A model generated the notes under the pieces. It was not told the DNA's origin, did no database searches, and saw only the letters and a list, made by a program, of their open reading frames with translations. Source: Verrucomicrobiota bacterium (GTDB lineage: Bacteria; Verrucomicrobiota; Verrucomicrobiia; JABWAM01). From it: a stretch of 64,000 nucleotides of DNA. Below, in pieces: positions 48,725 through 54,219 of this stretch (the stretch's first letter is position 1; each line of letters opens with the position of its first letter). Both the position numbers and the translations under genes were made by a program. The stretch is taken from positions 62,001-126,000 of the forward strand of contig JAHFSY010000007.1 of the NCBI GenBank assembly GCA_023269615.1, given 5' to 3'.

Positions 48725-49291
48725 TCATTTCCAGTTTGTCGATGTGAAGGTGTGCGATGATCCGTCGAGGATGGCGGCGGGAGGAACTGCCGCGTTTTTG
48801 ATTTCGATGAGCGAAAGCGTTTCCGTTTGCTTCTTGGTTTTCTTGTCCACGCGGATCTTGTGATCCACGATCAATGCGAGGCGTCCGTTGAGGTCTTCCC
48901 TGGCAACGAGGAAGGAGATTAAAAGGTTGGAGCTTTCACCCGGTATAAACGTGACGGTTTCGCGAGAAACGGGGTTGTCCGATGTTTTCTGCCCCACGTC
49001 ACTGATCTTGAAAATGCCGGCGATGTCATGGATTTCGCGCGACGGACCGATACGCAACGTGAAGCGGCTCGGTGAAATCTGGTTGGTGAGCGTGGATTGG
49101 TTGGTCACGAGCAGCGAAACGGTGACGTTCACTTTTTCCCGCAACATCAAGCTGTCGGTCTGGACGACTTTCATCACAAACGGATTGAGAGGGATCGCAT
49201 CACCGTAGCGATAGGTGCGATTCATAAAATCGCCGCAACCCGCGAGCACGGCGAGGGCGGGCAGAATGAATAACCAGCACAAACGCTTCAT
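48725..49291 (-). CDS. lipoprotein of unknown function
   Basis: The 188-residue protein has a lipoprotein signal with lipobox LAVLAGC (Cys18). The mature part looks like an Ig-like beta-sandwich: FVMKVVQTDSLMLREKVNVTVSLLVTNQ, a TLTNQISPSRFTLRIG strand and FIPGESSNLLISFLVARED. It is similar in style to DUF4352-type domains, but I cannot assign it. It should be anchored at the outer or inner membrane. Confidence 0.72.
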   Translation of the reverse strand: MKRLCWLFILPALAVLAGCGDFMNRTYRYGDAIPLNPFVMKVVQTDSLMLREKVNVTVSLLVTNQSTLTNQISPSRFTLRIGPSREIHDIAGIFKISDVGQKTSDNPVSRETVTFIPGESSNLLISFLVAREDLNGRLALIVDHKIRVDKKTKKQTETLSLIEIKNAAVPPAAILDGSSHTFTSTNWK

Positions 49292-49359
49292 CCGCTCATA
49301 TAAACGGGAGCGGGAGAACTTGTCACCTTTGAAAGCTGATTGCTTCAAAGACAGTATCG

Positions 49360-49527: not shown

Positions 49528-49541
49528 GCTACAACTGTAGC
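49528..49541 (+). promoter_or_regulatory. BlaI/MecI-type operator
   Basis: GCTACA-AC-TGTAGC is an inverted TACA/TGTA site of the kind bound by BlaI and MecI dimers. It lies 16 bases before the blaI ATG, beside a TTGACG at 49518, so it probably mediates autorepression of the blaI-blaR1 pair. Confidence 0.75.
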
Positions 49542-49556: not shown

Positions 49557-49934
49557 ATGAGTGGGACGCCGAAAATATCCGACGCGGAATGGGAGGTCAT
49601 GAATGTGGTCTGGCAGCGTGCGCCCGTCTCCTCCTCGGATATCGTGGAAGCCCTTTCCGTCAGGCGTAAATGGACTTCCCGCACGATCCGCACACTGATG
49701 GATCGCCTGATCCGGAAAAAGGCGATCGGCCCCCATCCCGACGGCGGACGCCCCTCGCTCTACCGCGCGCTGGTGTCACGCGAGGACTGTGTCCGCCGCG
49801 AAAGCCGCTCCTTCATGGAACGCGTCTTCGGAGGCGATTCCGATCCCATGCTCGTCCACTTTGTTGAGAACACCCGCCTTTCGGCTGAAACCATTGCAAG
49901 ACTCAGGAAAATTCTAAATGGGCGAAAACCATGA
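49557..49934 (+). CDS. blaI: BlaI/MecI-family repressor
   Basis: The 125-residue winged-helix protein has ISDAEWEVMNVVWQRAPVSSSDIVEAL, then WTSRTIRTLMDRLIRKKAIGPHPDGGRPSLYRALV and a C-terminal dimer helix ending LRKILNGRKP. BlaI proteins bind TACA/TGTA sites and are cut by a BlaR1 peptidase; an ideal site lies 16 bases upstream. The partner peptidase gene starts 97 bases later, with a REP-like element between them. Confidence 0.92.
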   Translation: MSGTPKISDAEWEVMNVVWQRAPVSSSDIVEALSVRRKWTSRTIRTLMDRLIRKKAIGPHPDGGRPSLYRALVSREDCVRRESRSFMERVFGGDSDPMLVHFVENTRLSAETIARLRKILNGRKP

Positions 49935-49945
49935 ATGCATTTTCT

Positions 49946-50020
49946 TGTAGGAGCCGTTGCCAACGGCGATGCGGGCGGGGGGAACCGGGGACCCGGTCGC
50001 GGCTAGCAACCGCTCCTACA
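49946..50020. repeat. REP-like palindrome, copy 4, between blaI and blaR1
   Basis: It starts TGTAGGAGCCGTTGCCAACG and ends GCTAGCAACCGCTCCTACA. It fills most of the 97-base gap, and its hairpins could stabilise the upstream mRNA and lower expression of the peptidase. Confidence 0.85.
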
Positions 50021-50031
50021 AAAAACTTTTG

Positions 50032-53000
50032 ATGGAAATCTTCATCGTCAACCTGACCGCCTTCTTCTCTTGGCTAGTCACGACTTCGTGGCAGGCTTCC
50101 GTGCTGGTGCTTCTTGTATTGCTGATCCAATGGATATTCGGACGATGGCTGACCGCGCGATGGCGGTATGCGCTTTGGTTTCTGGTTCTCGGTCGTCTCA
50201 TGCTGCCTGCGCTGCCATCAAGCGGGCTCAGCGTTTTCAATCTCATCGAAAGAGAACCGGTTCGCGAGGCGGCGGTGTTTTGCTCGGATGCCATGGATGC
50301 CGCCTATACGGGAAGTTACGACCTTGGAGACGGGTTCGCATCACGTCAAACCTCGGAACAAAGCGTGAGCGTGCTGCCCGCGACCGGGTTGACGCCTTCC
50401 CACTTTCTGTATTGGAAAACGTGGCTGGCCCTGAGCTGGCTGCTGGGGTTTCTTCTGCTACTCGCAAGAACCATGGTGACCCACGGGCGAATGTGTGTGC
50501 GCGTGTCGAAATCCTCGCTGGTATCCGAAACTCGGATTATCGATCTGCTCGAATCCTGCAAACAAACCATGGGCGTCAAGATCCGCCTGCGCGTGAGGGA
50601 AACGGAACTTGTCACGGGTCCCTGTCTCCTGGGCGTTTTCCGTCCTCAACTGCTGCTTCCGCCCGGGATGATGCAAACCTTCAACGAGCGGGAGATGAGG
50701 TTTATTTTTCTCCACGAGCTGGCGCACATCCGTCGGCGCGACCCGTCCGTCAACTGGGTCCTTTCGCTTCTTCAATACCTGCACTGGCTGAATCCCGTGA
50801 TCTGGCTTGGGTTGGAGCGGATGAAGATGGATCGTGAGCCGGCATGCGATGCCATGGTGCTATCGCGCGCGGGAGAGAATGAGCACCAGGGATACGGCGA
50901 AACCATCCTGCATCTCCTCGAACGGGTGCAAAGCCCGCGGTCATTCCCGGGAATGGTTGGCATCGTGGAGGATGAAAAACAGATGACGCGCCGGATCACC
51001 CTGATCTCGCAATTCCGGCGCACATCGGTCTGGTTGTCCGCACTGGGAATCGCCTTGATCGTGGTGCTGTCCATCGTTGGGCTGACCCGTCGGGATTCCA
51101 GCCCGACGATTTCCGAAGAGCGCTCGTTTCCGGAGCCAAAGCCCCTGGTGATGGCGGCACGCCGAGGCCAGACCGACAAGGTGAGGAAGCTTCTTCAAGA
51201 AGGCGCGGATCCGGAAATGGGAATCGCAGCGCTCCGCGAAGCGGCGAAGAATGGCCATCTCGACACCGTGAATGCCCTGCTGGACCAGGGCATCAACATC
51301 AACGCCAAGGACAGCGGGGGCATGACCGCGCTGCATTATGCAGCCATGAACGATTATCCGTCTGTCGTGAAAATCCTCATTTCAAAGGGGGCGGATGTGA
51401 ACTTGAAGCTCAATGGCGGCGCCACCGCCCTGCATCTGGCCGCAGGCAGGGGAAATGTCGAAATCGTGGAGTATCTTCTGTCACATGGAGCGGAGGTCAA
51501 TACGAAGGATGATTCTGGTCGGACTCCCTTGCAGCAGGCTGCAGTAGGCGGGACGCGGGAAATTTGCTCAACCTTGATCACTCACGGTGCCGTCTATGAT
51601 GACGTGTTCACAGCGGCCGCCTTGAACGACACCAATAAAGTTGAGGCGTTGCTCGAAAAAGATTCGAAGCTGGTGAGCACAAAGGGGGCATACGATGAAA
51701 CTCCGCTTCACTGGGCTGCGATGGGCGGAGGACTGGACACCGCCGCACTCCTCCTCTCTCGCGGTGCCGAGGTGGACGCGCGAGCCAGGAGCAGGGAGAT
51801 GTCGCCGCTTTGCATGGCCGCCATGCATGGGCATCCGGAAGTCGCCCAACTTCTTCTGGACAAGGGGGCCGATCCGCAATTCAAATCCGTGCTCGGATAT
51901 ACGCCACTCTTCTGGGCGGTGACTTCGCGCAAGCAGGGGGCCGCGGAATTGCTCATCCTCCACGCGGCGCATGTCGCCCCCGAAAGCGCCGAGGGCCAGA
52001 TGATTCTGCACCGCACCGCAGAGGCCGGAAAAAAGGACCTGGTGCGGTTGATGATCTCGAACGGATGGAACTACGACATTTTCTGCGCGGCCGCGCTCGG
52101 CGACGTGGACCAGGCAACGCTCCTGCTCAAAAAGAACCCCGAATTGTTGCGCGCCACATGCGCATTGGGCGTTTTCTCCAGCTCGGATGCCAGGACCAGA
52201 AACTTGGAAACTCCATTGCACTGGGCTGTGTCGTGCAACCAAAAGGAGATGGTTAAATTCCTGCTGGATCGCGGTGCAGATCCCAACGCGAGAGGCTATT
52301 TCGGATGCACTCCGCTGCATTACGCCAGGACCAGGGAAATGGTGGAACTTTTGCTTCAGCGGAAATGGCTTGTCCGCAGGGTGAACATCAATGCGGCGGA
52401 TGACGACGGGCGCACCCCGCTCCATTGGGCGAAGGAAGGATACAATTCCGACCCGGAAGTGGTGGAGTTGTTAACGAAGGCCGGCGGAGTGGATTACGGC
52501 GAACCCACACCCGCTCCTCCCCCTTCCAAAACTGAACTACTGAATGCGGACCTGATCAATCTTGCCGGCTCGGGCGCGACGAACCAGGTGTTGAATCTCA
52601 TTGCACAAGGCGGTGACCTCAATGCGAGAGGCGACCAAGGACGGACCCTCCTCATGATTGCTGTGAACAAAAGGCAGGCCGGTATGGCCAGGTTCCTGAT
52701 CGGCAAGGGAGCGGATGTGAATGCAAAGGACAGCAATGGCATGACCGCGTTGCAACTCATGTTCGATTCGGATTGGGGCGAATCAGACGACAGCCTGGAA
52801 GTGATCAAGGCATTGATTGCGAAAAATGCCGACCTCAACGAAACGGATTCCAAGCATGGCAACCCGCTTCAAAACGCGGCATTTTTTGGCCTGAGCCAGG
52901 CTGAGCAGTCGCTCGTCACCGCCGGGGCACGTCCCCCTCAAACCTTGATTTATGCCGCCGCCAAGGGGGATCTGGGTTCCATGGAAAAATTATTGGCGGA

Positions 53001-54219
53001 GAAAAAAGATGTGAACGAAAAAGATTCCAGGGGACGCACTCCGCTGATCGCAGCATCACGCAACGGGCATTTGGAAGCGGTCAACCTGTTGTTGAGCCAT
53101 GGCGCAGATGTGAACGCGCAAGCGGAAGAAGCACACCGCAACTGGCTTGTGAAAACAGCGCTCGCCACCGCCATCCAGGCCCGACACATGGATGTGGCCA
53201 GCGCGCTGATCGCCAAGGGAGCCGACCTGGAACTCAAGAATCCAAACGGGGAGACACTCCTGTTCAACGCGGTCCTTTACAACCAGACGGACGTGGTGGA
53301 GTGCCTTCTTATCTGCGGAGCAAACGCCGATGCAAAAGGTCCCAAAGGCAGGACTGCGAAGGAGATCGGTTTGCGGAGTGGCAATTCCGAGATTGTGGAA
53401 ATGTTCAAGAGGGGTGTTCGGCCGGGATCAAAACCCCGCTACCAGCCGGGCACAAAAGCGGTGTTCAGCTCCAATCCGCTGGCTAGGAAACTGTACGAGG
53501 CCGCAAGCAAGGGGGATTTGAACGAGGTGAGAGCCTTGCTGACCCAGGGAGTGGACGTCAATGCCGGGTATCAAGGTGGCGGAACGGCGTTGTATGCGGC
53601 GGTCATATATAACAAAAAGGATGTCGTGGAATTTCTGATATCCAAGGGAGCCAACGTCAATTTTCAGGGCAACTTGAGAATGGCGTTGCGGTATGGCCAT
53701 ATGGATGCTGCCAAGGTCCTTCTCGCGCACGGCGCAACGGAGGACATCTTTTCCGCATCCGCCTTGAATGACACCGCGAGGCTGAAGGATTTTCTCGACG
53801 AATACAAAGACGCGGTGGATGTGCAGGACGGGGCTGGATGGACCCCGCTGTATTGGGCATTGTGGCTGGGCGCGAAGGACTCCTGCCAACTCTTGCTTCA
53901 TCGCGGCGCCAACGTGAATGCGCGAGAGAAGATCGAGGGTGCCACCCCGTTGATCATGGGCGTCCGCAGCCTTGGCGCCCAATTCATTCCCGCGCTGCTC
54001 GACAAGGGGGCAGACATCAATGCGCCGGACAACTATGGAATGGCCATGCTCCATTGGTCGTCGTTTATCGGCGACAGCGCAACCGTACAAGTGCTCCTAT
54101 CGAGAAAGGCGGACTTCAATTTGAAAACGAAGAAGAATGAAACCGCCCTCCAACTCGCCAAGGAAAAGAAACATCCCGAGATTGTTGAGTTGCTCAAGAA
54201 GGCCGGGGCGAAGGAGTGA
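50032..54219 (+). CDS. BlaR1-like M56 peptidase with very large ankyrin-repeat domain
   Basis: The 1395-residue protein starts with BlaR1-type membrane segments (FFSWLVTTSWQASVLVLLVLLIQW, WRYALWFLVLGRLMLP, a third near LALSWLLGFLLLL). Next come the M56 zinc peptidase with IFLHELAHIRRRDPSVNW and a final segment VWLSALGIALIVVLSIVGL near residue 355. The remaining thousand residues are about 25-30 ankyrin repeats (GADVNAKDSNGMTALQ, GRTPLIAASRNGHLEAVNLL and similar). In BlaR1 the part after the last segment is the outside sensor domain, so the ankyrin array is probably periplasmic. The ATG at 50032 follows a REP element. With BlaI upstream this is likely a signal-sensing repressor-cleaving pair with an unknown ligand. 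Confidence 0.9.
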   Translation: MEIFIVNLTAFFSWLVTTSWQASVLVLLVLLIQWIFGRWLTARWRYALWFLVLGRLMLPALPSSGLSVFNLIEREPVREAAVFCSDAMDAAYTGSYDLGDGFASRQTSEQSVSVLPATGLTPSHFLYWKTWLALSWLLGFLLLLARTMVTHGRMCVRVSKSSLVSETRIIDLLESCKQTMGVKIRLRVRETELVTGPCLLGVFRPQLLLPPGMMQTFNEREMRFIFLHELAHIRRRDPSVNWVLSLLQYLHWLNPVIWLGLERMKMDREPACDAMVLSRAGENEHQGYGETILHLLERVQSPRSFPGMVGIVEDEKQMTRRITLISQFRRTSVWLSALGIALIVVLSIVGLTRRDSSPTISEERSFPEPKPLVMAARRGQTDKVRKLLQEGADPEMGIAALREAAKNGHLDTVNALLDQGININAKDSGGMTALHYAAMNDYPSVVKILISKGADVNLKLNGGATALHLAAGRGNVEIVEYLLSHGAEVNTKDDSGRTPLQQAAVGGTREICSTLITHGAVYDDVFTAAALNDTNKVEALLEKDSKLVSTKGAYDETPLHWAAMGGGLDTAALLLSRGAEVDARARSREMSPLCMAAMHGHPEVAQLLLDKGADPQFKSVLGYTPLFWAVTSRKQGAAELLILHAAHVAPESAEGQMILHRTAEAGKKDLVRLMISNGWNYDIFCAAALGDVDQATLLLKKNPELLRATCALGVFSSSDARTRNLETPLHWAVSCNQKEMVKFLLDRGADPNARGYFGCTPLHYARTREMVELLLQRKWLVRRVNINAADDDGRTPLHWAKEGYNSDPEVVELLTKAGGVDYGEPTPAPPPSKTELLNADLINLAGSGATNQVLNLIAQGGDLNARGDQGRTLLMIAVNKRQAGMARFLIGKGADVNAKDSNGMTALQLMFDSDWGESDDSLEVIKALIAKNADLNETDSKHGNPLQNAAFFGLSQAEQSLVTAGARPPQTLIYAAAKGDLGSMEKLLAEKKDVNEKDSRGRTPLIAASRNGHLEAVNLLLSHGADVNAQAEEAHRNWLVKTALATAIQARHMDVASALIAKGADLELKNPNGETLLFNAVLYNQTDVVECLLICGANADAKGPKGRTAKEIGLRSGNSEIVEMFKRGVRPGSKPRYQPGTKAVFSSNPLARKLYEAASKGDLNEVRALLTQGVDVNAGYQGGGTALYAAVIYNKKDVVEFLISKGANVNFQGNLRMALRYGHMDAAKVLLAHGATEDIFSASALNDTARLKDFLDEYKDAVDVQDGAGWTPLYWALWLGAKDSCQLLLHRGANVNAREKIEGATPLIMGVRSLGAQFIPALLDKGADINAPDNYGMAMLHWSSFIGDSATVQVLLSRKADFNLKTKKNETALQLAKEKKHPEIVELLKKAGAKE

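Follow-up and report, generated by a model that had tools for sequence, protein, structure and literature searches.

A BlaR1-type membrane protease with a long ankyrin tail, paired with a BlaI-type repressor in a member of Verrucomicrobiae

BlaR1 is familiar as a sensor of antibiotics; at the locus described here the same protease and repressor are joined to a probable protein-binding solenoid, and in relatives to a wide range of other extracytoplasmic domains. The locus lies in the window, by which we mean the whole 64,000-nucleotide stretch of DNA that was analysed, in the 4.48 Mb genome of a member of Verrucomicrobiae. The preliminary description of a peptidase-ankyrin gene with blaI upstream was confirmed by the intact reading frame, the Pfam domains and the operator. 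The peptidase-ankyrin frame starts with ATG at 50032, runs without an internal stop and encodes 1395 amino acids; blaI lies on the same strand, with 97 bp between the two genes. The features of the locus are as follows.

49528-49541, no strand: BlaI-type operator dyad, GCTACA-AC-TGTAGC (exact-match genome scan; dyads near related blaI genes)
49557-49934, plus strand: blaI-type repressor, 125 amino acids (Pfam PF03965; MecI/BlaI structure matches)
49946-50020, no strand: REP-like imperfect palindrome, GTAGGAGC...GCTCCTAC (half-site counts, RNA fold)
50032-54219, plus strand: M56-ankyrin protein (reading of the frame, Pfam)
50074-51006, plus strand: M56 peptidase domain, residues 15-325, with TM1-TM3 (Pfam, AF2 model, match to BlaR1 8exs)
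50713-50727, plus strand: HELAH zinc motif, residues 228-232 (conserved columns in alignments A1 and A2; BlaR1 residues from PMC9834060)
51028-51081, plus strand: TM4, residues 333-350 (hydropathy, models, charge bias)
51142-54210, plus strand: ankyrin array of about 28 repeats, residues 371-1393 (ankyrin HMM, Pfam, model match)

The overall GC content and the third-position GC are similar across blaI, the M56 part and the ankyrin part, and thus give no sign of a recent joining. The REP-like palindrome in the blaI-protease intergenic spacer belongs to a genome-wide repeat family, with about 100 half-sites in the genome versus 33 in the control, often as inverted pairs approximately 40-95 bp apart; its RNA fold has a z value of -3.5.

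The protease part is complete, as first described. Peptidase_M56 (PF05569) matches residues 15-325 at 201 bits, where the cut-off is 31, and covers positions 3-296 of the 296 in the profile. His228, Glu229, His232, Asp237, the Glu269-x3-Asp273 pair, Tyr288 and Arg321 correspond to the hallmarks of BlaR1, for which the catalytic and supporting residues of the Staphylococcus aureus enzyme were used in the comparison (PMC9834060). The spacing agrees too, with Asp237 five residues after His232, Tyr288 19 residues after Glu269 and Arg321 on the helix that precedes TM4. The catalytic-residue columns are invariant or almost so across 41-44 relatives (alignments A1 and A2), and BlaR1 cryo-EM entries are the sole PDB relatives found by sequence search (E value of 1e-10). 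Because a structure search with residues 1-620 was dominated by ankyrin matches, we modelled the M56 part separately (residues 1-366; AF2 monomer, pLDDT of 86.9). This model has the membrane helices and the re-entrant loop of the BlaR1 fold and superimposes on BlaR1 8exs over 260 residues (Z score of 21.0, 4.0 Å, model range 11-319), with Ste24p as the second-best match (Z score of 11.7). The TM4 helix at 333-350 is seen in the model, outside the range aligned to 8exs. By all sequence tests run, the M56 part looks like a working BlaR1-type protease.

The part after TM4 differs from that of BlaR1. A linker of about 20 residues leads from TM4 to the first repeat, and beyond residue 371 only ankyrin families were found by Pfam, with no penicillin-binding or class-D-like sensor, transpeptidase or beta-lactamase domain found in the protein. 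The replacement of the beta-lactam sensor by an ankyrin array, as proposed at the outset, is thus upheld. The NCBIfam model blaR1_generic scores 189 bits, under its cut-off of 400, which places the protein outside the strict BlaR1/MecR1 family of beta-lactam sensors. The Ank_2 match has an E value of 1.5e-140. With an HMM trained on the ankyrins of the same genome, 28 repeats score positively between residues 371 and 1393, a span of about 1020 residues. Two linkers interrupt the array near residues 820-840 and 1125-1150. The AF2 models are monomers and cover the tail up to residue 620; the modelled residues 365-620 match ankyrin-1 (7uzu) over 253 residues (Z score of 28.3, 1.8 Å), consistent with tandem 33-residue helix-turn-helix units.

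The upstream gene encodes a normal BlaI and is preceded by an operator, again as first described. Its BlaI domain (PF03965) scores 112 bits, and structure chains of MecI and BlaI are matched with E values of 3e-22 to 2e-18. In an alignment with S. aureus BlaI, His101-Phe102 falls on the scissile Asn101-Phe102, the site cut by BlaR1 (residues 101-102; PMC9834060), and Phe102 is kept in 44 of 56 BlaI sequences. The operator GCTACAACTGTAGC, of the TACAnnTGTA type, is separated from the downstream BlaI start by 15 bp. An upstream dyad with at most one mismatch is present in 52 of 56 blaI genes, that of the window included, versus 4.7% of random 300-bp pieces, and is therefore not due to chance. 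Two dyads 20-26 bp apart are present in 42 of the 56 upstream regions; a second dyad, which in most relatives lies at 22-24 bp from the first, is absent upstream of blaI in the window, which we count against reading the locus as a switch. The genome has another BlaI-like gene, which is truncated by a contig end.

The locus therefore shares with BlaR1-BlaI and MecR1-MecI of Staphylococcus and Bacillus the BlaI-family repressor, the TACAnnTGTA dyad and the cleavage Phe in BlaI; the M56 protease with HEXXH, EXXXD and the conserved Asp, Tyr and Arg; the four TM helices; and the sensor position after the last of them. It differs in carrying about 28 ankyrin repeats in place of a penicillin-binding sensor, and no beta-lactamase or PBP gene was recognised adjoining the pair. 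In our main reading, to which we assign a probability of roughly 0.7, the locus encodes a proteolytic switch of the BlaI/BlaR1 type, in which a long ankyrin solenoid has replaced the extracytoplasmic beta-lactam-binding domain. At rest, BlaI would sit on the dyad before its own start codon and repress the blaI-m56ank operon. The M56 protein would lie in the inner membrane with its N terminus outside, four TM helices, a cytoplasmic zinc site and a periplasmic ankyrin array. When the array binds or lets go of a protein partner in the periplasm, TM4 and the helix bearing Arg321 would shift, thereby activating the zinc site. The active protease would then cut BlaI before Phe102 and so relieve repression of the operon and of whatever else BlaI controls.

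This mechanism depends on where the tail lies. BlaR1 has both its N terminus and its C terminus outside (PMC9834060). The models give the window protein the helix set of BlaR1, and its zinc site is predicted to face the cytoplasm. The mean net charge around TM4 is +4.5 in the N-terminal flank and -0.3 in the C-terminal flank, and the former exceeds the latter in 59 of 61 proteins; the window protein itself has two Arg residues in the C-terminal flank. Tails borne on the same chassis within the class are of extracytoplasmic domain types: CarboxypepD_reg was found in 16 of 20 scanned, followed in several by thioredoxin-like folds, and one same-chassis relative among those scanned carries the periplasmic part of ExbD. 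In the genome of the window, a signal-peptide-like or anchor segment precedes the array in 24 of 39 other ankyrin frames and is seen in no control (0 of 55 and 0 of 195), by a strict home-made heuristic that is distinct from SignalP. Based on the BlaR1 topology, the charge bias, the tails of relatives and the exported ankyrins of this genome, among them the nearest paralog of the tail, a periplasmic array is the most likely arrangement, and the location originally suggested is the best-supported topology. With ankyrins that most likely face the periplasm in place of the penicillin-binding part, the pair probably senses a partner protein and not an antibiotic, although it is our guess that the ligand is a protein. 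The accompanying remark that ankyrins outside the cytoplasm are uncommon is not supported in this genome. AnkB of Pseudomonas aeruginosa is also described as periplasmic, in the title of a reference that PMC10294975 cites; on that description it shares ankyrin repeats outside the cytoplasm with the window protein, but it is a stand-alone protein linked to catalase, with neither protease nor repressor.

Many bacterial ankyrins and most eukaryotic ones are cytosolic. The ankyrin part could be placed in the cytoplasm, where it would bring the protease together with BlaI or with other proteins of the cytosol, and the two Arg residues after TM4 would fit such a placement. However, it requires a change of topology relative to BlaR1, whose helix set the model reproduces, and it runs against the charge bias, the extracytoplasmic tail types of relatives and the frequency of exported ankyrins in the genome. 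We consider it highly improbable.

The genome holds approximately 40 ankyrin genes, more than half of which have signal-peptide-like or anchor segments. The nearest ankyrin paralog of the tail among them is a 1211-aa frame (L125:2680-6312, G000:C28), 35% identical over 892 aa. By eye, its N-terminal part resembles a C39-type peptidase domain; ahead of a giant ankyrin array it has two TM helices and what appears to be a signal peptide, and it too looks exported. Elsewhere (L149, G000:C29:72000-82300), a pair of genes in opposite orientation, each about 1050 codons long, encodes several TM helices and C-terminal ankyrins, with N-terminal parts that have no Pfam match. In a search of plasmids, the best-scoring places listed were all ordinary ankyrin matches.

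A scan of genome contigs with the full protein returned no relative, and relatives were found by a contig search with the M56 alignment as the query. A relative of the M56 part is present in 97 of 384 genomes of the class. Among 60 class loci that were read, BlaI lies upstream in 55, and 11, from nine genomes and four other families, have the order BlaI-M56-ankyrin (L061, L064, L076, L079, L081, L092, L099, L104, L108, L111 and L113; eight of the 11 were checked with Pfam). Of 80 M56 loci sampled across GTDB, 77 are accompanied by BlaI, and only two have ankyrin tails, each on a contig already counted with the 11. The survey of C-terminal domains of BlaI-linked M56 proteins, suggested in the preliminary description, shows ankyrins recurring in at least nine other genomes of the class, alongside many other tails. 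Verrucomicrobiae proteins with CarboxypepD_reg, thioredoxin-like or ExbD tails share the chassis, the gene order and the operator type with the window protein and differ in the tail; no described function was found for them in the open papers searched. As its tail, the M56 protein of L115 (G340) has an ExbD periplasmic domain and that of L118 (G339) has PSCyt2.

The variety of tails also bears on whether the locus is a conventional responder to beta-lactams or wall damage that has lost its PBP domain and signals through another protein. The BlaI/M56 pairing common to bla systems would agree with such a role, but Pfam finds neither a transpeptidase nor a beta-lactamase domain, and the many unrelated tails of relatives argue against it; we regard it as very unlikely.

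The other BlaI-M56-ankyrin loci share the architecture, the gene pair and the operator type with that of the window, whereas their tails are only about 24-27% identical to its tail, lower than the identity to the paralog at L125. This closer resemblance to an ankyrin protein of the same genome fits a local origin of the tail. When ankyrin tails are mapped on a tree built from 60 M56 domains, seven changes are required, and well-supported branches impose at least six of these. The window domain sits among proteins with other tails (19-row set, 95/83). The sequences therefore suggest that ankyrins were probably added to the M56 chassis more than once, as separate fusions on several branches, although losses could explain some of the changes.

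We then consider what BlaI controls. The exact 14-mer operator has a single match in the genome, and the looser YTACANNTGTAR occurs twice, versus 30 occurrences of the reversed control pattern. The search for operator copies elsewhere, another point of the preliminary description, thus yielded one further YTACANNTGTAR site, and the exact 14-mer nowhere else. That site (L158:1501-1512, G000:C108:29930-29941) is an exact dyad that precedes an exbB-exbD-tonB operon by approximately 40 bp and adjoins a promoter-like pair, TTGACG / TATAAT. We rejected this operon as a conserved regulon member, because dyad-site loci in 12 related genomes have no homologous genes adjoining; six exact dyads away from M56 were also examined, of which most overlap long reading frames and none precedes such an operon. 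A predicted lipoprotein gene without a Pfam match (48725-49348, minus strand) is divergent from blaI and is a possible BlaI target, although some 180-240 bp, according to which start codon it uses, separate it from the operator.

Two copies of the exact dyad in the whole genome suggest a system that mainly regulates itself. Most simply, BlaI and the M56-ankyrin protein would form an autoregulated pair, and the latter may itself be the output. No gene lies closely downstream of the M56-ankyrin gene in the window, and a conserved downstream gene was sought among the relatives and not found. In one relative (L108:4613-5095, G169), the start of a small protein with an apparent signal peptide overlaps the stop of the M56-ankyrin gene, and it may be a partner or an output.

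The near confinement of the operator to its own operon, the lack of a close or conserved downstream gene and the large binding surface of the array would all suit a protein whose array does its work in the periplasm as a scaffold or effector, with BlaI and M56 merely setting its amount by autoregulation. Against this, the M56 catalytic residues and the BlaI Phe are kept, as expected of signal-dependent switching, and the ankyrin tail occupies the position of the sensor in BlaR1. We consider this account doubtful, and prefer the proteolytic switch.

Across 5.39 million open papers, we found no description of M56, BlaR1 or BlaI with ankyrins or in Verrucomicrobia; automatic annotation in databases may list the domain pair. 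The suggestion of a signalling system not yet described holds to that extent; the architecture is not unique and the chassis is known. The locus is a real, recurrent and apparently unreported variant of a known signalling chassis. The weight of the finding rests on the topology of the tail and the cleavage of BlaI, both of which we infer.

More tentatively, these loci may form a self-contained class of receptors, in which an autoregulated BlaI-M56 chassis has repeatedly, in lineages of Verrucomicrobiae, been given swappable extracytoplasmic modules, ankyrins included, that through transmembrane proteolysis report a periplasmic protein partner, with the receptor as the main induced product. How the outside domain controls the inside protease is an open question according to the BlaR1 structure paper (PMC9834060). 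If the proposal is true, the BlaR1 mechanism would be a general transmembrane switch, and the natural tail swaps would offer a route to ask how an outside domain governs an inside protease.
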